A stretch of DNA of 36,476 nt, taken from an uncultured Candidatus Saccharibacteria bacterium (GTDB lineage Bacteria; Patescibacteriota; Saccharimonadia; Saccharimonadales; Saccharimonadaceae). The notes under the pieces were generated by a model, which did no database searches, had not been told where the DNA came from, and was given only the letters and a program-made list of their open reading frames with translations. The translations under genes and the position numbers were made by a program. This document shows, piece after piece, positions 2,647 to 16,444 of the stretch; position 1 is the first letter of the stretch; the number at the start of each line of letters is the position of its first letter. The stretch spans positions 1-36,476 of the forward strand of contig CAMZFK010000005.1 of NCBI GenBank assembly GCA_947306055.1, read 5' to 3'.

Positions 2647-3141
2647 GTGGAGCTTAAAAAAAGTTTTAGTCGACGCAAACTTTTGGCTATCATTTATGTT
2701 GTTTTTGCTTTTTGTTATTTTGTATTTGGCTTGCAGTCGGCTAGAGCATTTAGTTATCATACTTCTGCGGAATTACGAATTCCAGCCATTGGCCTTGTTT
2801 CCGATGTGACTACTTTAGCACTCGACAACCACACCTTAAATACACCAGATGAAATTGTGGGGAGTTTTTCAAAGACAAAAAATAACACCCTTCTCGTGGG
2901 ACATTCTACGACGGTTTTTAAAAATCTTTCTGAAGTAAAAATTGGCGATAATGTCTTCTACGACAATAAGGAATATTTGGTGATTAGTGCTACTACGTAT
3001 CCGAAAGAGGAAATCAATATGAATCGCTTGCTAGCATACACGGATAGTGAGGCCATCAAGATCATGACTTGCTCAGGGGAAATCTTTTATAATGGCGATG
3101 CTTCGCATCGACTAATTATTACTGCCGTATTAGTTCAATAG
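2647..3141 (+). CDS. Sortase family protein (GTG start)
   Basis: N-terminal TM, LVGHSTT (catalytic His), IMTCSG (catalytic Cys); SD AAGGAG and TGC-TATAAT upstream. Confidence 0.82.
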   Translation: MELKKSFSRRKLLAIIYVVFAFCYFVFGLQSARAFSYHTSAELRIPAIGLVSDVTTLALDNHTLNTPDEIVGSFSKTKNNTLLVGHSTTVFKNLSEVKIGDNVFYDNKEYLVISATTYPKEEINMNRLLAYTDSEAIKIMTCSGEIFYNGDASHRLIITAVLVQ

Positions 3142-5074
3142 CAAATCCGCCACCTGGCGCAAGATATATATCTAGAATGTCGCTTCTTCCGACGTGTTTT
3201 TCTGAAATATTTATGCCAAACGGGTTCTCTCGGTAGTGTGCGTCTGGCGAGTCGCAGTAAAGTTTGGCCCTATAAACTCCGTCGTCCAAAAAGCTCAGAT
3301 TAATGTGCACGCTGCGACTATTTTCGTCTGTTACGCCACCGATGTACCAATTCTCACTATCCCTATCCTTTCTCGCTACGACGTAGTATTCGCCGACCTC
3401 ACCAGCAAGCGGGATGGTCTTGGCAAAATTAACCGGCACGTTTCTTATGAAGTTGAATGCGTCAGGGAAGCGCTCTTCATAAATAAAAGGTCTGTCCGCA
3501 GCCATCGCCATGCCAGAATAAATAGTAACAAAATAAGCCAGCTGGCGGGCAATTGTAGTAGAAATACGTTTTACATTATTGGTAATATCTAAAATGCCAC
3601 TTGTATAATCCATGCCGCCCGACAAAAGTCTTGTGTATGGTAAATAACATGCGTGCGAAGGCAAAAGCGCTCCGCCTTCATATTCTTGGCCACGAGCCCC
3701 CTCGCGACTAAGCAAATTCGGGAAAGTACGCTCGATGCCAGTGCCTTTGATCGGCTCATGGATGTCTAAGCAAATGTGCTTTTTTGCAGCTAGTTCAAGT
3801 GTTTTTTGATAATGGTTCACGCCGAGTTGCGAGTGATGAAATTCACGACGGCCGTTTATCACCATCATACTACCAGCATAGCCAGTTTTGATATAATGTA
3901 CATCATTTACCGCATAATAGTTGTAGGCATCGTCTAGCTGCTGTTCATAATTATCTACAAAGCCGACCGTTTCGTGATGACCCACAATCTCAACTCCTTT
4001 AGCCTTAGCATAATTTGCCACCTCTTCCAGGTTGAAATCTGGTGTCGTAGTTGTAAATTTGTTGTTGACACCATTTTCAAGCCAATTACCCTCCCAGCCG
4101 TCATTCCAACCTTCGATAAGGAGGCCGCTTATTCCTAATCTTACAGCAGCGTCAATATACTCTTTGGCGTGAGCAGTAGTCGCTCCGTGCCTCTCGCCTG
4201 GGGCCCAAGTCCATTCACCGACATACATTGCCCACCAAATACCAATAAATTTAAGTGGTTTCACCCATGAAAAGTCAGATTTTGGTGGGTCATTTAGAGC
4301 GTAAATCATTCTATTTGTAGTAAGCTCCAAGCACGAGTCTGCGATCATAATGACACGCCACGGCGTCTTAAAAGGTAAATTTACATGCGCACGGGTCCCG
4401 TCCGATAATGGCGTGATATCGGATTTGAGTGCGTAATTATTGTCCAATACTAACGTCATTGAACCATAGTCATAGAGCGCTGCTTCATGGATTGCAAGAT
4501 AAAATCCGTTTGGGGTACGCATTGTGAGTGGGGTATGCACGGGGTGCGCTAAATCATAAACTAAAGTCTTCTCGTAATTATATTCGTAGCGGTCTGGCTG
4601 ATAGGCTGGGATTTTCCATGCCGTAGTGTTTAGGTCGAGTTTAAATTCGGTCTGTTCGTCTTTTATGGTGATTCTTTGAAATTTTGGCTGCGGTGGAATT
4701 TCGTAGCGAAAAGCTACGCCTTCATCAAAAACCCTAAAACGCACAGTGAAAATCCGGTGAGATTTCTCGGATTCCGAAAGATAAAAGGCTGCTTCTTCGT
4801 AATGGTCGCGGATCTGGCTTTCTTCGCCCCACGGCATGTTGAAGGTCTCGTCATGGATGCGTCTAGTGGTGCGGATTAGCCTTAGCCCGTTTTGGAATGG
4901 CTCCTCACCACAAAGTGACAACCCCAAATTCGACGGCCTAATGATGGGCTTTTCATCTTTTGAAATAGTATAAAAAATTCGATTGTCTTTTAAGGTGAAT
5001 TGACACTTAATTCTGCCATTTGGCGAAATAATTTCTTTGATCGCAGTATCGTGCCATTTTGCCCACTTAAACAT
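3119..5074 (-). CDS. Glycoside hydrolase family 97 (SusB-like alpha-glucosidase), no signal peptide
   Basis: LLIEGWNDGWEGNW, YIKTGYAG, DIHEPIKGTGIERTFPNLLSREGARGQEYE resemble the GH97 catalytic region. Confidence 0.88.
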   Translation of the reverse strand: MFKWAKWHDTAIKEIISPNGRIKCQFTLKDNRIFYTISKDEKPIIRPSNLGLSLCGEEPFQNGLRLIRTTRRIHDETFNMPWGEESQIRDHYEEAAFYLSESEKSHRIFTVRFRVFDEGVAFRYEIPPQPKFQRITIKDEQTEFKLDLNTTAWKIPAYQPDRYEYNYEKTLVYDLAHPVHTPLTMRTPNGFYLAIHEAALYDYGSMTLVLDNNYALKSDITPLSDGTRAHVNLPFKTPWRVIMIADSCLELTTNRMIYALNDPPKSDFSWVKPLKFIGIWWAMYVGEWTWAPGERHGATTAHAKEYIDAAVRLGISGLLIEGWNDGWEGNWLENGVNNKFTTTTPDFNLEEVANYAKAKGVEIVGHHETVGFVDNYEQQLDDAYNYYAVNDVHYIKTGYAGSMMVINGRREFHHSQLGVNHYQKTLELAAKKHICLDIHEPIKGTGIERTFPNLLSREGARGQEYEGGALLPSHACYLPYTRLLSGGMDYTSGILDITNNVKRISTTIARQLAYFVTIYSGMAMAADRPFIYEERFPDAFNFIRNVPVNFAKTIPLAGEVGEYYVVARKDRDSENWYIGGVTDENSRSVHINLSFLDDGVYRAKLYCDSPDAHYRENPFGINISEKHVGRSDILDIYLAPGGGFAIELIRQ

Positions 5075-5119
5075 AATCTAAATATATCATATCTAGCACT
5101 ATTATGCTATAATATGTAT

Positions 5120-6607
5120 ATGACAAAGGGGAACGAAAAGGGCGGGAAACCTTGGGCAAAGATTGCTGTTTTTAGTATACTTATCTTTTTATTGATTTCT
5201 GTTGGGACCTTTTTCGGCGTGCAATTTTTCACGAAAACTGGTATTTTTAAAATTCCTGGCGTAGTATATTATGACGAAAGCTTAGACGATGAAGAACTAG
5301 CAATTTTGAAGACAATTTTCACCGACGAGGTAGTACTTGATAAGGACGTGGCCGTCTCGGCAGAAAACTACCTATCAAGACCAGAGTTAAAGCCTGGCGA
5401 GTTCCTCTATCAAATCGTAATTCCGGTGACAGATTTTTATAGTTCTGAGACAAATATCGATATAGCGGAGCCCTATGAATTATTTAGAAATAGCAACTAC
5501 GAGATTATTAGCGTAGAGGACTTGGATTTTTCAAAAAAAATACTTTCAATTAATAACGAATACTATCTTGATAGCTTTGACTCTGGAGCAGTCTTCCATG
5601 TCGTTAAGTTTGATTCTGAAGCCTACGAGGAGGAGATTGCCCCGCTCATCGGTGACACTTTCTCAAAAACTTGGCCGGACAAGGCAAGTGTTTTGACTTT
5701 TGCTCAGACCGGAGTAACGGCGCTTTCTCGTAGGATGAATGCGAAATTGAGTGAAGTCGGCGATGCGACTTATTTTGCCAAAAATATCGGCGATTTCTTG
5801 GCGTCTTTTGACCTTACGCATACGTCAAATGAATCTTCGTTTACGAGTTTTGCCACATCAAAAAACATCTGTTCGGACAAGCGTTTTATTAATACTTTGA
5901 CGGCGATCGGCCTAGACATTGTAGAACTCACCGGCAATCACAACCAAGATTGTGGTGACGATGCAGCGATTGACACTATTTCAATTTATGAAGCTAACGG
6001 CATCAAAACTGTCGGCGGCGGTAGGACGGCGGATGAAGCGGCGGTACCACTTAATATTTCCGAAAAGGGAAATAATATCACGATGCTTGGATTCAACCTA
6101 TCTACCGGCGGAGCGACGCTTGATAACACGCCTGGTGCTAATCAATATTATGAGGATGTCGCAAAGAGACAAATTGCGGAGGCCAAGGCTCGTGGTGATT
6201 TCGTACTCGTAGACGTCCAATATTACGAATGCAATAATTACGCCTCAGAATACGAAGACCCGATTTGTGACCGTGCGAATTCTTCCGCTGGCGACCAAAT
6301 AGGGTTCTTTAGAAGTATTATCGATCTTGGTGCAGATATGGTAGTCGGGACCAGTGCGCATCAGCCACAGACTTTTGAGCTATATAACGGCGGAGCAATC
6401 TATTATGGTCTTGGCAATCTGTTTTTTGACCAAATCTGGTGGCCAGGCACGACTAGAAGCCTAGTACTTGTAAATTACTTCTATGAAGGCAAATTATTGC
6501 AGACTAAAATCGTACCGACCATCTACGATGAGACGATGCAGACGAAACTCTTAGACGAGGAGACCAGCAAATGGTTCATCGAAAGGCTGACAAGCGTTCA
6601 TCCATAG
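5120..6607 (+). CDS. CapA-family protein (poly-gamma-glutamate/capsule synthesis-like metallophosphatase fold), membrane anchored
   Basis: ELTGNHNQD, GTSAHQPQTFELYNGGAIYYGLGNLFFDQ; N-terminal TM; TATAAT-N6-ATG5120. Confidence 0.85.
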   Translation: MTKGNEKGGKPWAKIAVFSILIFLLISVGTFFGVQFFTKTGIFKIPGVVYYDESLDDEELAILKTIFTDEVVLDKDVAVSAENYLSRPELKPGEFLYQIVIPVTDFYSSETNIDIAEPYELFRNSNYEIISVEDLDFSKKILSINNEYYLDSFDSGAVFHVVKFDSEAYEEEIAPLIGDTFSKTWPDKASVLTFAQTGVTALSRRMNAKLSEVGDATYFAKNIGDFLASFDLTHTSNESSFTSFATSKNICSDKRFINTLTAIGLDIVELTGNHNQDCGDDAAIDTISIYEANGIKTVGGGRTADEAAVPLNISEKGNNITMLGFNLSTGGATLDNTPGANQYYEDVAKRQIAEAKARGDFVLVDVQYYECNNYASEYEDPICDRANSSAGDQIGFFRSIIDLGADMVVGTSAHQPQTFELYNGGAIYYGLGNLFFDQIWWPGTTRSLVLVNYFYEGKLLQTKIVPTIYDETMQTKLLDEETSKWFIERLTSVHP

Positions 6608-7584
6608 ACAGTCAAAAGACCAAGGCAAGCCCTGATTCTATTAGGCGTCCTCTTGCTGCTCGCATTGTCACTATCATTTTAATTTTTATATCTGCTATGA
6701 TTTTGGTTCTCGTAGTAAATCTTCTTATAGCGTTGGTAGCATTTACCAACATTCCTTCTGTAGACACAAATTCTGGGACGCTTTCAGGCGCGGATGAAAG
6801 TTCCGAAATAACAGAGATAAGCTTAGAAAATTTAACTGATTTACCGATGTCGCCTAAGCGAATCGATTTTCAGCCCGTCATAGATCATTGGGCCGCGTCT
6901 ACTGGTGGCAATAAAAGTGTGCTAGTTTATGATTTAGACCTCAACGAAATAGTTGGGATATACAATCCTAATAAGTCCTATGGCACCGCTTCGCTTTATA
7001 AATTGTTCGTCGTATATGAGGGCTATCGCCGAGTACAGGCCGGGGAATGGGATAAAGACGCAAAAGCTGGTAGCACTGGTAACACTATCTCGAAATGCCT
7101 TGACCTTGCAATACGCCAGTCCAACTCTCCTTGCGCAGAGACTTTATGGGCAATGATTGGGCATAACACGCTAGATGAGATAATTAAGAACGATTTTAAT
7201 ATTACGGACTCAAATATTTCTAATCTCAAATCAAATGTGACAGATATTTACAAAATACTGAAGATTTTTTACGAGCACAGGGACATTACCGACGAATTTT
7301 TAATCGCGCAGATGAAAGATTCTTTCTTAAACCAACCCGTGACGACATATGACTGGCGCAGGGGGCTTCCGAGCGGATTTTCGAAGGCTACCGATGTCTA
7401 TAATAAGGTCGGCTGGGACTATGATGCCGACAAAAAACGTTGGAATATCTACCATGATGCGAGCATCGTGGAATTTCCAGACCTAAATCGTCGTTTCATC
7501 GTCGTCGTGATGACAAACTACGTGTCAAACCAAAGCATCCGAAATCTCGGTACGGAAATCGAAAAGCTAGTACGTGCTGAATAG
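6571..7584 (+). CDS. Membrane-anchored class A beta-lactamase-like serine hydrolase
   Basis: SLYK (SxxK), QSNS (SxN), KVG in place of KTG; N-terminal TM. Confidence 0.8.
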   Translation: MVHRKADKRSSIDSQKTKASPDSIRRPLAARIVTIILIFISAMILVLVVNLLIALVAFTNIPSVDTNSGTLSGADESSEITEISLENLTDLPMSPKRIDFQPVIDHWAASTGGNKSVLVYDLDLNEIVGIYNPNKSYGTASLYKLFVVYEGYRRVQAGEWDKDAKAGSTGNTISKCLDLAIRQSNSPCAETLWAMIGHNTLDEIIKNDFNITDSNISNLKSNVTDIYKILKIFYEHRDITDEFLIAQMKDSFLNQPVTTYDWRRGLPSGFSKATDVYNKVGWDYDADKKRWNIYHDASIVEFPDLNRRFIVVVMTNYVSNQSIRNLGTEIEKLVRAE

Positions 7585-8547
7585 TTGCGCCCAGTAAGTC
7601 TTGTATTCGGTATCTGGAGCGAAGACGAAGCCGACAGACATCTTAGTGTATTTCGGATTTAAAATGTTTTCACGGTGAGACTCTGAATCCATCCAAAGTT
7701 TTACGACCGAAGTCGGCGAGACGGCCGCATTGCCGGCAGCAAGATTCTCGCCGCTAATATCACTTCCGCTAGGCGCAGGGCAAGCCGTGTTCCACTCGCT
7801 GTCATCTGGGCGCGTATGTTCATATCGTGTCACTATTTCTTTGGCGCGAGTATCTGCTGCTTCTTCGCAGGCAGAAGACCAAGACAAAGGCGATAAATCA
7901 TTATCTTTCCTAATATCGTTTACGATATTTAGGACTTCCTGTTTCCATTGCTCTACCGGTGGCTCTACTACATCTACCGTGATGGTATCCTTATACTTAC
8001 CATCATAAGTACCGGCAGTGACTACCGTACTACCGACGCCTTTGATTATTGGCGAGCGGCATTTTTTACTATCATATCCTAGCCAGCTACGAGCAGAATC
8101 ATAAAATCCCGCAATTACATCGGTGTTCGAAGTCTGCCAATACATATTTCCAAGGTCGTAGACTTCGCCACCAAGACATATGTCTACATCCGTCGTGGCA
8201 TAGATTACCATAGAAGTTTCGCCCCAAATTTCGCCATCTGGGATTTCTCTAATCTCCTTAGATATTATTTTTGGCTCGGAAGTGAGGCCAGATTCTTCAT
8301 GCTCTTTGTCATTCTGGGCAACGATATTATTACTTAGCCAAATCACACCAGCGACTAACGCTCCGATAGTTAGGACGATATTAAAAATGCTATATCCGAT
8401 TAGTTTCCTAGGGCGAAGCAGCGACTTGGTCTTGGCACGCCTATGTACTCGATAAATGTATCGACAAAAGGCAATGTCCATCAAGAGTACTGCGGCTAGT
8501 GAAATGATTAGTAATATCGTGAATAATTGCATTTTATTTCCTATCAT
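7567..8547 (-). CDS. CAP/SCP (YkwD-like) domain protein, membrane anchored
   Basis: LNIVNDIRKDNDLSPLSWS...HTRPD...GENLA...SESHRENILNPKYTKMSVGF. Confidence 0.9.
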   Translation of the reverse strand: MIGNKMQLFTILLIISLAAVLLMDIAFCRYIYRVHRRAKTKSLLRPRKLIGYSIFNIVLTIGALVAGVIWLSNNIVAQNDKEHEESGLTSEPKIISKEIREIPDGEIWGETSMVIYATTDVDICLGGEVYDLGNMYWQTSNTDVIAGFYDSARSWLGYDSKKCRSPIIKGVGSTVVTAGTYDGKYKDTITVDVVEPPVEQWKQEVLNIVNDIRKDNDLSPLSWSSACEEAADTRAKEIVTRYEHTRPDDSEWNTACPAPSGSDISGENLAAGNAAVSPTSVVKLWMDSESHRENILNPKYTKMSVGFVFAPDTEYKTYWAQLFSTY

Positions 8548-9760
8548 ATTTATGTAATTCGTCCGTGGCTGGGATAATCGTTACTATATCTGAAATAGTA
8601 AAAAGTCTATATGGGTAGTTATTGATATATATTGTGTAGATCTCACCAAGTGTAAAACTGCTCGCGCCGGCAATCAAATGGTCAAAAACCTTCTTTGAGA
8701 TGTGAGATACTACGGTCTTGCCGGCAGAATCTTTGATTTCTATCTTGGTGCCAGCTAGAAATGTCGTCCCAAAATCAAAATTCACATTAAAAATGCTTGA
8801 ATCTCGTCCTAGAGTTTCGGTTATATCGCCGGCCCCCACGGCAATGACGGTCCCGCCGTCCATAATGATATTAATCCCAGGGTCCAGCGAGCTATTTTTG
8901 CCATTAATCGGCCCGTCGATGGCAATATTGCCGCCCTTGATACGAATGTAGCCGTTACTATCGATACCGTCGCCACCGGTATTTAGATAGATATTGCCAC
9001 CAGTTATATTCACTGCGCATTCTGCATCGACGCTCGCGTCCGGAGCTTCGCTATTTACGGCGTTAATTCCATCATCGGAAGAGTCGATTGTGATTTCTCC
9101 ACCGTCTATCGCTACGATTTTTGCTTCTATCCCTTCGTAGCTGCTCGTGACATTGATTTTGCCTCCTAGGATGATCAGCGCATCGTTTGCGCGCAAGGCA
9201 TCATCCGCGGCTTTGATATTGTAGGTCCCGCTATTTATCTTTAGATTGTCTTTACCGACAATACCATCTTGAAAATTAGCGACGATGTTCAAGGTCCCTT
9301 CGCCAGCAAACGCGAGATTTGCCCTAGAATAAATCACCCCTTTGACTTCGTATTCTTCTAGGTATTTTTGGCCGTCTATCAAGGTATTCTCACCTACGAG
9401 CTCGATCAGCAAATCATCCGCCTCCTTACATACTATTGCTGGGCCAGATGAATTTTTGATTAGGACGTTGTCCAAGATTAGTCGCACCTCTCCATCTGGT
9501 ACGTCGATGATTAGCGAATCGTCCTTCAGATTTCCCGTGACATGATAATTACCAGATTTATTGATGATTTTAGTCTCGCCAAGTACGAGATCATAATACC
9601 GGTATTTATTCCAATTGATTTTTTGATCATTGTCATATAGGCCGGATGCTATAGTGGCATTTTCTGGGGCTAATTTTTCATTAATAAACACCGCGCCCGC
9701 CACAATTGCCGCGAGAAACGCCATTCCGATAGCTAGTAGACCTATACCTTTTTTGGTCAT
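8534..9760 (-). CDS. Cthe_2159-type carbohydrate-binding beta-helix protein
   Basis: Repeating G/D-rich beta-helix strands (KINVTSSYEGIEAKIVAIDGGEITIDSSDDGINA); N-terminal TM; next to DUF4956 and VTC genes. Confidence 0.82.
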   Translation of the reverse strand: MTKKGIGLLAIGMAFLAAIVAGAVFINEKLAPENATIASGLYDNDQKINWNKYRYYDLVLGETKIINKSGNYHVTGNLKDDSLIIDVPDGEVRLILDNVLIKNSSGPAIVCKEADDLLIELVGENTLIDGQKYLEEYEVKGVIYSRANLAFAGEGTLNIVANFQDGIVGKDNLKINSGTYNIKAADDALRANDALIILGGKINVTSSYEGIEAKIVAIDGGEITIDSSDDGINAVNSEAPDASVDAECAVNITGGNIYLNTGGDGIDSNGYIRIKGGNIAIDGPINGKNSSLDPGINIIMDGGTVIAVGAGDITETLGRDSSIFNVNFDFGTTFLAGTKIEIKDSAGKTVVSHISKKVFDHLIAGASSFTLGEIYTIYINNYPYRLFTISDIVTIIPATDELHKYDRK

Positions 9761-9765
9761 AGGGA

Positions 9766-10437
9766 TTATATTTCCTCTTCGAGCACCGGCTCTGACAGCA
9801 AAACTTTGAGATTACAATTCTTGACACGGATTTCGTCTAGGAAGGCCTTTTCTTTGACGCCTCGTTTTAGCTTGATATCATACGTCAGATTATAAAGACT
9901 CCCCATATTGACGGTTTTCATCGTGACGAGCTTCGCGTGTGAGGTGTATTTTTTGAAAATATCCTCAAATGCGTCTTCATAGTCCAAATCTTCAGGGATA
10001 ACGATTTTTAGTATGCGCTCTTTTCTGTCTGGCTCGAGGAGCGGCGTAAAGCTGAAAAAGAGAATTACCACAATCGCCGCCGCAGTGATTACTGCCGCAA
10101 AGAGCACATGACCCATACCGAGCGCCAAGCCCACCATCATCGAGAAAAAGACCGCAAGGAGATCTTTTGCTCGCCCCTGAATCGAGCGAAAACGGATCAG
10201 CGAGAAAGCGCCAAGAATAGCGATAGAGGTACCGAGGTTGCCGTTTATCATGATCATTACTGCCATCACAAGTAACGGCAAGGTCGCCAGCGTGACCAAA
10301 AATCCCTTCGTCGTCTGGCTAGTCGCACGATGAGTGATGGCGATCGCCACCCCTAAGACGACCGCGGAGGCCGCACAGATGAGCGCCGTAGTGATCTCTA
10401 GCCCGTTGGGATTGGTGCTAAATATACTATTAAACAT
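9766..10437 (-). CDS. DUF4956 membrane protein
   Basis: Multi-TM N-terminal half, GNLGTSIAILGAFSLIRFRS, soluble C-terminal domain; position in VTC cluster. Confidence 0.85.
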   Translation of the reverse strand: MFNSIFSTNPNGLEITTALICAASAVVLGVAIAITHRATSQTTKGFLVTLATLPLLVMAVMIMINGNLGTSIAILGAFSLIRFRSIQGRAKDLLAVFFSMMVGLALGMGHVLFAAVITAAAIVVILFFSFTPLLEPDRKERILKIVIPEDLDYEDAFEDIFKKYTSHAKLVTMKTVNMGSLYNLTYDIKLKRGVKEKAFLDEIRVKNCNLKVLLSEPVLEEEI

Positions 10438-11149
10438 GCTTTTCCTTTCTTATTAATTCATATATTTTACCAATTTTCGAAAAACTGCTTGGGTAAACCT
10501 TCTCTTTAGATAGAGTTTTGACTAGCCAAAGCGGCATCACCCCATTTGCCTTAATTTCCATTATAATATTTTTTTCGTTATTAAAATAGTGTTTATCATT
10601 AGCTTTTTTAAAAAACTTCAGGTTTTTGGTACGATAACTTAAATTCTCATCGAAAGTTACCCTTAAATTATCCTCGCCGGTGAAGCTTGTGCGGTCATAA
10701 TGGACCAGGATTTTTGGCTTCAATTTCAGATATTCTACTAGATAATCTACCTCTTTTGCTATCTGGAGGTCGGACTGTTGCTCTTTTTTGGCTAGTTCGA
10801 CGGCCGTCTTCTTATTTGCAGCGAATTTCTCGTAGTCTTCAAGCTTCAAGAGCACTCGGCGCTTATATCCGAGACTCGGGCCCTTACCTCTTAATTTGGT
10901 CTTGATTTCCAAAAAAACTTTGTCGTATCCGCCATACGAGCGAGCCCGCAGCTTCTCTTTGAATTCGGGATGCTCGATGGATTTGATAATCAAATCGTAA
11001 TTATCGGTATCAAAATAGATATTAAACACCGAAGAATGGTGGTATTTGTCACGCTGCATGATGCGCTTTACTGCCCGCAAAATCTCTTTCTGCTGCTTCG
11101 CAGAAATCAGATATTTCTTCTCCACGCGATCAAAGATTTTGATATCCAT
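10430..11149 (-). CDS. VTC-domain (polyphosphate polymerase-like, CYTH/TTM superfamily) protein
   Basis: RVEKKYLIS, SVFNIYFDT, FKEKLRARSYG, FLEIKTKLRG, VHYDRTSF, MEIKANG. Start revised to MDIKIFDRVEKKY (minus ATG at 11149), TATAAT-N6-ATG. Confidence 0.87.
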   Translation of the reverse strand: MDIKIFDRVEKKYLISAKQQKEILRAVKRIMQRDKYHHSSVFNIYFDTDNYDLIIKSIEHPEFKEKLRARSYGGYDKVFLEIKTKLRGKGPSLGYKRRVLLKLEDYEKFAANKKTAVELAKKEQQSDLQIAKEVDYLVEYLKLKPKILVHYDRTSFTGEDNLRVTFDENLSYRTKNLKFFKKANDKHYFNNEKNIIMEIKANGVMPLWLVKTLSKEKVYPSSFSKIGKIYELIRKEKHV

Positions 11150-11209
11150 ATTATTATTATAAAGCATAAGCGTAGGAATTCTAAGCTTGACTTTTTTAGC
11201 CTTGTGTGG

Positions 11210-11314: not shown

Positions 11315-12004
11315 ATGAAGAAATATACTAGGTTTTTATTAGCTGCGTTAGCAGCAATCATCCTTGTTGGCTGCCTTGCGCCCGCTGAAAGCGCGTACGC
11401 GATGTACGCTTACAACGAGGAAGAAATGCGGAAGTCAACCGCAAGCGAAATTAGGTACCTTTACGAATTTCATGTTATCCCTACGGGTGATATGAAAGAA
11501 TTTGGGTACGCCGAGGATGTGACGTACGGAGAAGTCCTGCAATACTATTATAATGGGATCCTTCCCATTAAGAAAAAGTATGCTGGACAGAAGAAAGCTC
11601 AGAAGTGGGCAAAGAAAATCGCCTACGAACTTTCACTTGACTTTCCCGAGCAAGCTGATGTAATATATTCGTGGCTTACTGATGGGAAGTATGAGGCCTT
11701 TAACCTAGACGAGCCTGCAAATATGGATTGGGCCTACAGGATGGGATATCTATCCTGTCGATATTACGAGACAGAGGAGACGGCCTACATGTTTAAGAAC
11801 TCAGGGGACGACTTTGAGTACGATTTCAACAATGGGCGTTTCCGAAGCATCACGAGCCAGGGGCCCTCCCCTTACATGAGGAAATATTTTGGGCTCGAGG
11901 CCGGAGATGACTACGCTAAGAGATATCTTGCGGTTGTTTTCATGAAGCCTATCATCATATATTGCGAGTACGCTACGCGTTCAGAGGTGGAGGTGATAGT
12001 CTAG
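11315..12004 (+). CDS. Orphan secreted lipoprotein, unknown function
   Basis: Signal peptide with lipobox LVGC; SD AAAGGAGGG; own promoter and terminator. Confidence 0.8.
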   Translation: MKKYTRFLLAALAAIILVGCLAPAESAYAMYAYNEEEMRKSTASEIRYLYEFHVIPTGDMKEFGYAEDVTYGEVLQYYYNGILPIKKKYAGQKKAQKWAKKIAYELSLDFPEQADVIYSWLTDGKYEAFNLDEPANMDWAYRMGYLSCRYYETEETAYMFKNSGDDFEYDFNNGRFRSITSQGPSPYMRKYFGLEAGDDYAKRYLAVVFMKPIIIYCEYATRSEVEVIV

Positions 12005-12079: not shown

Positions 12080-12094
12080 TATACTTAGATTATG
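12080..12094 (+). promoter_or_regulatory. Leaderless promoter of giant surface protein: TGC-TATACT-N6-ATG
   Basis: tatgctatacttagattATG. Confidence 0.65.
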
Positions 12095-15000
12095 CGGAAA
12101 GTGAGGTGTAGGGTTGTATCTAGTGTAGCTATCGTCGGCTTTTTGGTCTATCTACTATCTCTTGCCGTCATGCCTGGTAATGCTTTTGCTGCGAGCACTG
12201 AAGGCGGGGGGTGGGTATCTCCTGGTGGCGATACAGGCGGCAGCGGCGGCAGCGGCGGCGGCGACGTCAATTGTGATGGCAACGATACATCCTCAGTCAA
12301 ATGCACCGGCAAATCATGGATTTTTTATAAAAGTCAGAAATCTGAATCCGAGGCCAAGGTTATACCACTATATATACCATTTAATATTCTCGTGAATACT
12401 AGTGGTAGCAATCTTACCGTCGTGAATGACCTCTACGGTGGTGGCATCCCGAAGATTTGTGCGGAGCACACAGAGCAAAATGGTGGGTTTTGGCACTATG
12501 GAATCAATGGAATGGGCAAGACGCCTGCGAATGGCAGAGAAGGGGGGTTTTCGTATGTCATCAGTAACTGGAGCAGTTATAGCAGGTATGCTAATAGGTA
12601 CAGCGTAGATGTCGGTAGCTGGGGACACTGGGGAACTATACCGTATGGGACGTATGATGGATATGCGATAGAACAGATGAAGAACAACGTATCGCAGACG
12701 ATTAACGATGAAAATGGCGAGGTATTTTATCGGGCTGGAGGCGATGATAATATTCGTTCATATATAGACACTAAGCCTTTCGATACTAATCGGGCATATA
12801 CTACATATGTGTTGGATGGGAGCGGCAATCCAAAATTAGATGAAAACGGCAATAAAGAGCCAAACTATCCGCTTTTGGCTTATCGGAAGGCTTGTGCTTA
12901 CTCCGCCACTAATGACAGAGACAAGGCAGACTGTAATAATGCCACATCTATTCCTAAAGGTACTTCGGCGTTTTGTTACTGGGATGGCATGGACGAAACT
13001 AAGTTCCTTTCTACCAAACTTACGGCGAAGTATAGCACTGGGGATACTATCGAAAGCATCAATACCTCTATACGGGAGGAACCTAATAGTAAGACTGAAA
13101 CCATCGGCACTAAGGAGGTTGAAAAGGGGAGCTATATAACTCTTGAATTCGTGCACGGATTGTATGCCGACCAAGCTGATACAAACGTCGAATACGAAAT
13201 AACAATGCGTGCAGATGGTTTGGACTCGGGGAGCGTCAGGATAAAACGAGAAAATAACGGGACTTTTATAACGAATCGTGACACCGTGACAGATAGTGGG
13301 GCTATTTCTACACGCTACTCTAAGACTATTAGTGGGGCTCAATATTTCGCTCCATATGACGATAAGAATTATCTCAAAAAGAATAACTACACCATCTACG
13401 GGGACAGAGTTGGTTCTTTTAATATCTGCGAAGTAATTAAGCTTAGTAGTGGCTTTAGTACTGGTGGATGTATCAATCTTAAGGTCACAGAGGATCCTCC
13501 TTCTGGCGGTGGCGGTAACGATGTCATTTTTTCTAGATCCACTGTAAGTGTATATGATGGTGCAGAAGTCATTGAAGCTGATACCGGTCTAGTCGGATAC
13601 CCGTGCAAAATTACTAGGCAAAATGGCTTTCACCGAGTCAGTGATTGCTCTAATGCAACTCGAAGTGTTACCGCAAATAATGGCCAGCCGATAAGGGTGC
13701 TCCGTGGGGATGTCATCGATATAACTTTTACCCATGACGTGTACTCAATGAATCCCTTATATAGTGACTACACTTTTTGTAGCTATTCCGATGGTAGTGT
13801 ACAGTCATGCGTAACCCCGGCGCTAGCCTATAGTCTCGAAAGTCCAAATACTAACGGTATTTATATAATCGAGACAAACGCGAGAAATGGCTATGGCTAC
13901 ACAGAAGTGGGGTGGCGTAGCGGGCAGTATTTTGTACCTAATATGACCGGCGATCATTTTAACACCCATAATTACGAACTTCAATTCAATAATCTAGGAT
14001 CCTATTTACTATGCGACAGCATGAGCATACGTGCGTACAACTCATACTACTACAACAACACCAGCACCACATCGGCATGCGCCAAAATTGAAGTGATTGA
14101 GGCTCCGATACTTACTCAAGGCTGCGCGAGCTGGACTTATCTTACGAATTATGCTACATCAGGTACTTCTGTTGGGTGGAATGAGGTGTTAATACTGGGT
14201 AGCAATGGCAACATTATCGATGCTAGAGCTTCCGGCTACGGATGGAAACATGGTCAAGGCGAATCAGATAGCTCGACCGTATACGCTAAGCCCGGCGACA
14301 AGGTAACATTCATAGACTGCTATTTCCCAGGGCTTCAAAAGAGTCTGTTTAGACAAAAGGTCACTTCTGTACATGGAGCGCATAATTCTTACCCGACCGC
14401 CCCATACAGCACCAGGAATACTAATGTTCAAGCGAATGATTCGGTCTTTGGAAGTTGGACCAATTTATATACCGTCAGGACGACTAAGAATTCTCCAAAT
14501 ATGCTTTCTGGGCAGTCCATACCGAGTAGTGCCACCTTTGATCCTGGGTTTACTCGCTCGTTTGACAAAAATGATCGTACGCCTATACAAGAAGATAAAT
14601 TGATCTACACCGTCACAGCAAGCGATACTGGCAAATATTTCATGGAGCAGATTAACAGCGGCTCGCCTTCGTATGTATCGCGGACAAATCACGGGCGTGA
14701 AAGTTGGATTTGTACTTGGCCAAATTATGGCGGTGGGTGCTGCTCACATCATACGTGGGACGTCGTATCTACTTGGTATACCGACAAGGACGGCGACATC
14801 GTAAGCAGCGGTACTGAAGGTGCTAGCAAGCATGAAACATACGGTTGGGTTTGCGATGAATGGTTAGCCCCATGCTACACTTCCCACCAAAATGATTACA
14901 TCACGCAGTCCAGAGATAATAGCTCTGATTACGACCGTGTCTGGCTGAAGGTTCCATATAATTTTACTAATTCTGCGAGCCTGCAACTTGGGGTTTCGGC

Positions 15001-16444
15001 AAGCACACCAGTCTATGCCGGCGAGACTGTCAAAGTAAATGAAGCCAAAGTAAATGTTAATACCAAATTTAATTCCGTTCTTGGCACCACTTATGCCACC
15101 AAGGTAGATGGGGCCGAGGCCCGACTGATTGCGTATGTTTCATCTACTAATAGCGGTAACGAAATGCGCACTGGTACTCGTGGGACTAATTTGTGTTCAC
15201 TATTATCATCAAGTCAGTGTTCTACCGTGAAAAGCACTACTTCTACTACCCTAAATTCAAACAGCAATTTAAGTGGCTCCACAGAATCTTTTGGCTTCAA
15301 CAATATATATAATGTCTTTGATGCAAATGCTGGTAATTATATGTGCTTCAGGATGGCCGTATATCCGTCCGCTAGTGGCGGTGATACTAATATGAATCCT
15401 AATGGTGATGGGCAGTGGTATCTCTCAGCTCCACAATGCAGGATTATAGCAAAAAAGCCTAGTTTCCAAGTCTATGGCGGGAGCCTGTATTCTGCAGGTT
15501 CAATTAAGACATCCAGAAGTCTGAAGCGTAATCTATTAGGCATCTATGGCTATACGCCGATGGGTTCGCCAAGTAATACTACCGTCTTTGGCTCCTGGGT
15601 AGAGCAAAGCGTGGTCTCGCTTGGTGCAGTAACACTCCTATCTTCTGGAGCGAGCACCGGTCTAAATAATACTGCTGTCGGTAGCGGGGGCCCAGATGCG
15701 TCTGATAATTTCTGTAAAAATCGCACTCCTCTTAGCTTCGCTAACTATTCTAGCGTGTCAAACGCTTCTCTCGATATGTCGCTTTGCCCTAACTCTTCAG
15801 TAACCGGCTTCGCCGAGATAGCTCCGACCAACGTGAATCGAGAATCGCTGATAGATTTCTTCAGCACCGGCTCGCCAAACGTACCGGCCGGGATTTCGGT
15901 GAACTTGAATAATGCCAATCATTATTCTGTGATAAATAGTGCTACTGGCGTAAAAATCCGTTACACACATTCTAGTGGGAATTTAACACTTAATGGTGCT
16001 ACTATCGGAGCAAGTACTACCCACGTAGTGAGAGCCAACGGTAACGTCACAATCAATGGTAATATTTCATACACCAATAATACTTTTGGGTCCGCCAGCG
16101 AAATACCAAAACTCATCATTTACGCAAGAAATATCGTCGTAGATTGTCGCGTGACCACTTTAGACGCCATACTTATCGCGGAAAACAATGTGAATACTTG
16201 CAATAGTGGCAATATCAACTCTAGCCTCAATTCTAATCAGCTTAATATCCGTGGGATGGTTATCACCAACACTATGAGTCTAAATCGTACCTATGGGGCC
16301 GCGACTGGTCGCCAATCTGGCACCCCAGCCGAAACCGTGAACTACGACACTTCGGCTATCCTGTGGGGTAGATTTATGTCTGGCGCCGCCGAGTCCGATA
16401 CTCTTGTCACAACTTACCAACACGAACTTGCCCCAAGATATTAG
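12092..16444 (+). CDS. Giant (1450 aa) secreted/surface protein with internal repeat modules
   Basis: Signal sequence MRKVRCRVVSSVAIVGFLVYLLSLAVMPGNAFA, Gly/Ser linker, paired Cys, Asn/Ser/Thr-rich; C-terminus YQHELAPRY; no LPXTG. Confidence 0.85.
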   Translation: MRKVRCRVVSSVAIVGFLVYLLSLAVMPGNAFAASTEGGGWVSPGGDTGGSGGSGGGDVNCDGNDTSSVKCTGKSWIFYKSQKSESEAKVIPLYIPFNILVNTSGSNLTVVNDLYGGGIPKICAEHTEQNGGFWHYGINGMGKTPANGREGGFSYVISNWSSYSRYANRYSVDVGSWGHWGTIPYGTYDGYAIEQMKNNVSQTINDENGEVFYRAGGDDNIRSYIDTKPFDTNRAYTTYVLDGSGNPKLDENGNKEPNYPLLAYRKACAYSATNDRDKADCNNATSIPKGTSAFCYWDGMDETKFLSTKLTAKYSTGDTIESINTSIREEPNSKTETIGTKEVEKGSYITLEFVHGLYADQADTNVEYEITMRADGLDSGSVRIKRENNGTFITNRDTVTDSGAISTRYSKTISGAQYFAPYDDKNYLKKNNYTIYGDRVGSFNICEVIKLSSGFSTGGCINLKVTEDPPSGGGGNDVIFSRSTVSVYDGAEVIEADTGLVGYPCKITRQNGFHRVSDCSNATRSVTANNGQPIRVLRGDVIDITFTHDVYSMNPLYSDYTFCSYSDGSVQSCVTPALAYSLESPNTNGIYIIETNARNGYGYTEVGWRSGQYFVPNMTGDHFNTHNYELQFNNLGSYLLCDSMSIRAYNSYYYNNTSTTSACAKIEVIEAPILTQGCASWTYLTNYATSGTSVGWNEVLILGSNGNIIDARASGYGWKHGQGESDSSTVYAKPGDKVTFIDCYFPGLQKSLFRQKVTSVHGAHNSYPTAPYSTRNTNVQANDSVFGSWTNLYTVRTTKNSPNMLSGQSIPSSATFDPGFTRSFDKNDRTPIQEDKLIYTVTASDTGKYFMEQINSGSPSYVSRTNHGRESWICTWPNYGGGCCSHHTWDVVSTWYTDKDGDIVSSGTEGASKHETYGWVCDEWLAPCYTSHQNDYITQSRDNSSDYDRVWLKVPYNFTNSASLQLGVSASTPVYAGETVKVNEAKVNVNTKFNSVLGTTYATKVDGAEARLIAYVSSTNSGNEMRTGTRGTNLCSLLSSSQCSTVKSTTSTTLNSNSNLSGSTESFGFNNIYNVFDANAGNYMCFRMAVYPSASGGDTNMNPNGDGQWYLSAPQCRIIAKKPSFQVYGGSLYSAGSIKTSRSLKRNLLGIYGYTPMGSPSNTTVFGSWVEQSVVSLGAVTLLSSGASTGLNNTAVGSGGPDASDNFCKNRTPLSFANYSSVSNASLDMSLCPNSSVTGFAEIAPTNVNRESLIDFFSTGSPNVPAGISVNLNNANHYSVINSATGVKIRYTHSSGNLTLNGATIGASTTHVVRANGNVTINGNISYTNNTFGSASEIPKLIIYARNIVVDCRVTTLDAILIAENNVNTCNSGNINSSLNSNQLNIRGMVITNTMSLNRTYGAATGRQSGTPAETVNYDTSAILWGRFMSGAAESDTLVTTYQHELAPRY

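Follow-up and report, generated by a model that had tools for sequence, protein, structure and literature searches.

The locus studied here raises the question of what a VTC-domain protein, a relative of the yeast polyphosphate polymerase, does in a bacterium of reduced genome when it is encoded together with a DUF4956 membrane protein and two anchored surface proteins of the Cthe_2159 and CAP families. We analysed a window of 36,476 nucleotides (contig CAMZFK010000005.1 of assembly GCA_947306055.1), which comes from an uncultured Candidatus Saccharibacteria bacterium. Its genome assembly has 523 kb in 21 contigs and is 78% complete. The nearest named records to the DUF4956 protein of the window come from ruminant-gut MAGs of Candidatus Saccharibacteria, with identity up to 83%. 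A PADLOC search gave no defence-system match.

A sequence-only reading had placed the four genes in one minus-strand operon under a single leaderless promoter. The operon is real and its coordinates were exact (Table 1); open reading frames and Pfam searches confirmed all four families, with every match above the curated cut-off (E values 1.8e-36 for VTC, 2.2e-14 for DUF4956, 4.6e-54 for Cthe_2159 and 4.2e-19 for CAP). The VTC gene shares 8 nt with the DUF4956 gene, a 5-nt gap separates DUF4956 from Cthe_2159, and Cthe_2159 and CAP have 14 nt in common. We observed no Shine-Dalgarno sequence before the VTC start, and a -10 hexamer (at least 5 of 6 positions) lies 4–12 nt before this start in 46 of the 67 relatives versus ∼18% in shuffled sequences, the commonest spacing being 6–7 nt. 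Because the position of the hexamer recurs in this way, the leaderless reading is well grounded, and a leaderless start of the operon is plausible. A generic promoter scan of the window did not list the site.

Table 1. Features of the VTC operon in the window
Feature	Position	Strand	Basis	Remarks
VTC gene	10430-11149	minus	PF09359	239 aa
DUF4956 gene	9766-10437	minus	PF16316	223 aa
Cthe_2159 gene	8534-9760	minus	PF14262	
CAP (YkwD-like) gene	7567-8547	minus	PF00188	
-10 element TATAAT	11156-11161	minus	sequence and positional conservation	6 nt upstream of the VTC ATG; promoter of leaderless type

Convergent with the operon and beyond its end are a PGA_cap gene (5000-6607, plus strand) and a beta-lactamase2-fold gene (6571-7584, plus strand), the latter overlapping the 3′ end of CAP by 18 nt; many relatives have comparable genes (cluster C2) close to the operon, and the two could possibly form a second surface module. 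Divergent from the operon are genes for an unmatched 229-aa secreted-type protein (11315-12004) and for a secreted-type protein of 1450 aa that likewise lacks a Pfam match (12092-16444, plus strand). The window also has a complete GH97 glycoside hydrolase (3119-5074, minus strand), in a reduced genome, and members of its cluster, C7, occur near the operon in 15 loci.

The linkage of the first two genes was nearly absolute. VTC was present in 67 of the 295 class genomes and DUF4956 in exactly the same ones, while the remaining 228 had neither; the two genes were adjacent in the same order at all 67 loci. Within the genus of the window, 58 of the 76 sampled genomes have the operon. Among 196 clostridial genomes, DUF4956 was found in 94, VTC in 97 and both in 92; in the 2 genomes with DUF4956 alone the match does not reach the cut-off of that family, and of the 5 with VTC alone at least 4 have a partial match. 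At each of the 39 clostridial loci that we read, VTC immediately precedes DUF4956, with Cthe_2159 close by in 21 and CotH in 7. Three of 14 control genomes (Corynebacterium glutamicum, Bacteroides ihuae and Methanosarcina acetivorans) matched either family, and each of them matched both.

The third gene is variable. Cthe_2159 is directly next at 59 of the 67 class loci and within reach at 60, CotH takes this place at 4, all in one other genus (g8), and neither was found at 3; hence 64 of the 67 Saccharibacteria loci carry one of two unrelated families, both extracytoplasmic. CAP, in contrast, was within the fetched flanks of just 31 of the 67 class loci and of none of the 39 clostridial loci. 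The sequence-only reading would have been refuted by unconserved VTC catalytic residues and a lack of co-occurrence of the four genes in relatives, and neither was observed. The co-occurrence stands for VTC, DUF4956 and largely Cthe_2159, but not for CAP; from its distribution we rejected CAP as a core component, and it is a lineage accessory. CAP is usually preceded by a gene for a 7-TM protein that Pfam does not recognise (cluster C6, e.g. L048:7599-8549), which occurs at 29 loci, nearly always directly before CAP; the window and L056 do not have this gene. In about half of the loci, a gene that fuses an ABC ATPase with an FtsX permease lies near the operon together with a two-component system (cluster C4; e.g. 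L035:7142-10237), an arrangement reminiscent of the peptide-sensing Bce-type modules.

Next, we considered whether the VTC protein has an intact active site. It scores 126 bits against PF09359 (cut-off 23), carries this domain alone in Pfam, and is soluble, with no TM segment and a net charge of +19. In 42 divergent relatives, R8, K12, R68, R70, K83, K96, R153, R163, E198, K200 and K225 are invariant, and these align to R196, K200, R264, R266, K281, K294, R361, R373, E426, K428 and K458, respectively, of Vtc4. Every tunnel residue needed by yeast Vtc4 is thus invariant; replacement of R264, R266 and E426 inactivates the yeast complex (PMC9911596). The AF2 model (pLDDT 91) has the TTM tunnel fold, and its top PDB match is Vtc4 with AppNHp-Mn (3g3r; TM 0.77, E 1.9e-15). 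From the intact residues and the fold, we predict that the protein is an ATP-dependent polyphosphate polymerase. The literature gave no demonstration of VTC activity in a bacterium, which counts against this reading.

The DUF4956 protein has four TM segments by hydropathy scan and five helices in an AF2 model of moderate quality (pLDDT 76), which also shows a C-terminal alpha-beta, cytosolic ACT/ferredoxin-like domain; the protein has an invariant RFR motif (R82, F83, R84). Comparison of profiles with hhalign gave 87% probability over 139 collinear columns with MgtC, for which only two clostridial sequences were used; none of 80 control membrane proteins exceeded 10%. The alignment spans the membrane region and the ACT-like domain, so that DUF4956 appears to resemble MgtC/SapB, a likeness new in this analysis; it differs from that family in lying below Pfam detection (the search reported no PF02308 match), in its RFR motif and in its constant VTC partner. 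The authors of a study on Streptococcus intermedius independently call the homologue SIR_1592 MgtC-like with an ACT domain (PMC12345266). A fold search with the DUF4956 model returned no whole-fold match at E 0.001, and we detected no relation to the Vtc1 channel, which counts against a VTC-like machine. We predict that DUF4956 is a membrane partner or a conduit for polyphosphate.

Both surface proteins are anchored and acidic. Cthe_2159 has one N-terminal TM segment, an ectodomain of net charge -22, a 184-bit match to the beta-helix profile PF14262 and the invariant acidic turns SYEGLEA, DDGINA and GDGIDSNG. Its solved relative, Cthe_2159 of Clostridium thermocellum (PDB 4peu/4phb; E 2.9e-19 to 4peu over the beta-helix domain), binds acidic polysaccharide (PMC6712302); the window protein differs from it in having a TM anchor and in the place of its gene within a VTC operon, and we found no literature that links Cthe_2159 with VTC/DUF4956. 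The CAP protein has two N-terminal TM segments, an ectodomain of net charge -18, and invariant H244, E267 and H291.

A candidate operator was observed upstream of many of these operons. We defined a box as the direct repeat TTTAAG-N4-6-TTTAAG with at least 11 of 12 positions matching. In Saccharibacteria, the box precedes VTC at 16 of the 41 loci with a clear intergenic region and 6 of 9 OmpR-type regulator genes of the same loci, against 1 of 263 other genes (p 9e-15 and 1e-9, respectively, ignoring the relatedness of loci). The clostridial counts were 12 of 32, 4 of 13 and 1 of 90 (p 2e-7 for VTC and 7e-4 for the regulator, relatedness again ignored). Perfect repeats precede the VTC operon at L037, L044, L049, L050, L075, L079 and L082 in Saccharibacteria and at L226, L228, L231, L232, L240 and L245 in Clostridia, and many of these loci also have the box before a nearby OmpR-type regulator gene. 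At the leaderless promoters of Saccharibacteria, the box commonly begins 38–42 nt before the start codon, which places it over the -35 region, the binding site of OmpR/PhoB-type activators. It was present in 23 of 30 genomes having a close orthologue of the regulator versus 5 of 35 others (p 4e-7), a close orthologue meaning at least 61% identity, a line set after the identities were known. When relatedness was removed the association was a trend only (∼4.8 pairs in favour and 0.7 against; median p 0.125). The TTTAAG repeat, new in this analysis, is probably a conserved operator of an OmpR-type regulator in two phyla. The window, whose genome is 78% complete, shows neither the box (best 9 of 12) nor a regulator match; it has lost or never had this control.

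The operon is the Cthe_2159-partner variant of a known, uncharacterised Pel-accessory cluster. In streptococci, clostridia and bifidobacteria, a VTC/DUF4956/CotH set clusters with pel, in a group described as cotH-PPP(VTC)-DUF4956-DUF4832 (PMC7112168; SIR_1591-1594, PMC12345266). The two arrangements have in common contiguous VTC and DUF4956 genes and an extracytoplasmic partner; that of the window differs in its partner (Cthe_2159, plus CAP, instead of CotH), in its order VTC-DUF4956-Cthe_2159, in its reduced Saccharibacteria genome, and in the lack of pel genes, since PelG was not found above the cut-off in any of 76 genus genomes or in the window's own genome (78% complete). Sub-threshold PelG matches, in frames of ∼550 aa and confined to the C-terminal part, were taken as cross-hits to flippases and rejected. 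The three-gene arrangement was stated not to be found outside pel loci (PMC12345266); for the g8 Saccharibacteria, where VTC-DUF4956-CotH is present and no Pel gene was recognised among the neighbours tested, this may not hold. NELoc-2 of Clostridium perfringens (PMC2879425) likewise has VTC, a small membrane protein (annotated tubulin/FtsZ) and CotH in a row, but with linked HEAT-repeat and chitin-synthase-like genes and with CotH where the window has Cthe_2159; its order VTC-DUF4956-CotH-739 aa-HEAT is common to locus L246. From the yeast complex (Vtc1/3/4; PMC9911596), with which it shares the TTM polymerase fold, all the catalytic residues of Vtc4 and a constant membrane partner, the window system differs in lacking both an SPX domain and a TM domain of the VTC1 type; its partner in the membrane is a separate MgtC-like protein.

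These data led us to a main reading, to which we give a probability of about 0.48, that the operon may encode a bacterial VTC-like machine in which cytosolic polyphosphate synthesis is combined with membrane transfer and a surface acidic beta-helix. It is supported by the VTC/DUF4956 linkage, the invariant catalytic residues and the Vtc4 fold match, by the alternation of the third gene between extracytoplasmic families together with the acidic ectodomain of Cthe_2159, and by the specificity of the box for VTC and regulator promoters and its association with the presence of the regulator. The absence of PPK1 from all 76 genus genomes (7 of 14 control genomes match) supports it further; PPK enzymes are those to which polyphosphate synthesis in bacteria is ascribed. 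It is weakened by the finding that deletion of SIR_1593, the VTC homologue of S. intermedius, abolished neither aggregation nor Pel (PMC12345266).

The same proteins could instead serve an intracellular store, with VTC making cytosolic polyphosphate, the MgtC-like DUF4956 only regulating through its ACT domain by nucleotide or phosphate state, and the surface genes co-transcribed for regulatory reasons. The hhalign similarity, the lack of a TM segment in VTC and the phosphate-metabolism role suggested for the S. intermedius homologues (PMC12345266) all fit, but a pure store would not need the extracytoplasmic third gene kept at nearly every locus, and we consider this explanation unlikely. A similarly low probability is given to the proposal made for the Pel-linked set, that the module is a regulator or assembly factor which phosphorylates or tunes an exopolysaccharide. 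The clustering with pel (PMC7112168), the altered Pel level and aggregation upon deletion of the DUF4956 and CotH homologues in S. intermedius (PMC12345266), the glycosyltransferase of NELoc-2 (PMC2879425) with the gene order that L246 shares, and the binding of acidic polysaccharide by Cthe_2159 (PMC6712302) would agree with it; on the other hand, the genus genomes gave no PelG, the four-gene operon has no polysaccharide synthase, and the VTC/DUF4956 pair persists without such genes. The idea of a surface-polymer module stands as far as surface proteins adjoin VTC/DUF4956, while its polymer, as PelG is absent from the genus sample, is more likely the VTC product than a co-encoded polysaccharide. 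The role in host adhesion that the sequence-only reading suggested is speculative.

It is also conceivable, though quite improbable, that the VTC protein, instead of being a polymerase, is one of the TTM hydrolases, such as a tripolyphosphatase. Many TTM proteins are phosphatases (PMC4641920), and E10, invariant within an RxExK motif, would from the register of RxTxK and ExExK occupy an acidic-patch position of TTM phosphatases, which is Thr198 in yeast Vtc4. However, Vtc4 too has basic residues at the positions of R8, K96 and K200, and K225 is invariant, the equivalent of the catalytic Lys458, whose counterpart is dispensable in the phosphatase AtTTM3 (PMC4641920).

We compared the histories of the loci in a concatenated VTC+DUF4956 tree, where the Saccharibacteria split into six groups among Bacillota (the long branches L068 and L070 are uncertain in placement). 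A single Saccharibacteria clade was rejected (p-AU 2e-6), whereas the two groups inside the genus of the window are compatible with one clade (p 0.24). By this tree the operon entered Saccharibacteria more than once, a result new in this analysis, and repeated lateral acquisition in the gut from gut Bacillota appears the simplest reading.

In the proposed VTC-like machine, the cytosolic VTC enzyme would make polyphosphate from ATP, and DUF4956, with its ACT-like domain as a sensor or docking part, would receive or gate the nascent chain and pass it across the membrane; for the yeast complex it is established that synthesis is coupled to translocation (PMC9911596). Through its invariant acidic turns, and probably with the help of Ca2+, the anchored acidic Cthe_2159 may hold or organise at the surface a polyanion that is exported or membrane-associated, a place that the CotH kinase-like protein would take in other clades, with CAP as a surface add-on of the lineage. 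In relatives, the TTTAAG repeat at the promoter is probably the binding site of an OmpR-type two-component system. ATP is scarce at the cell surface, and one might imagine exported polyphosphate as an extracellular phosphoryl donor for CotH-type kinases (or held on a Cthe_2159 scaffold), under a dedicated two-component system common to Saccharibacteria and gut Clostridia; this extension is highly speculative.

The system is under-described, as had been suspected: an intact VTC site, a VTC/DUF4956 pair nearly inseparable in both groups sampled, and surface-protein neighbours in Saccharibacteria go together with no assigned function that we could find in the literature. The probable conserved operator offers a handle on a testable regulator, and Corynebacterium glutamicum, with matches to both families, could be a laboratory model. 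If the polymerase is coupled to export, the operon would be a second bacterial route placing polyphosphate at or outside the membrane, and, if so, the host-dependent Saccharibacteria would have acquired this route repeatedly from gut Bacillota.
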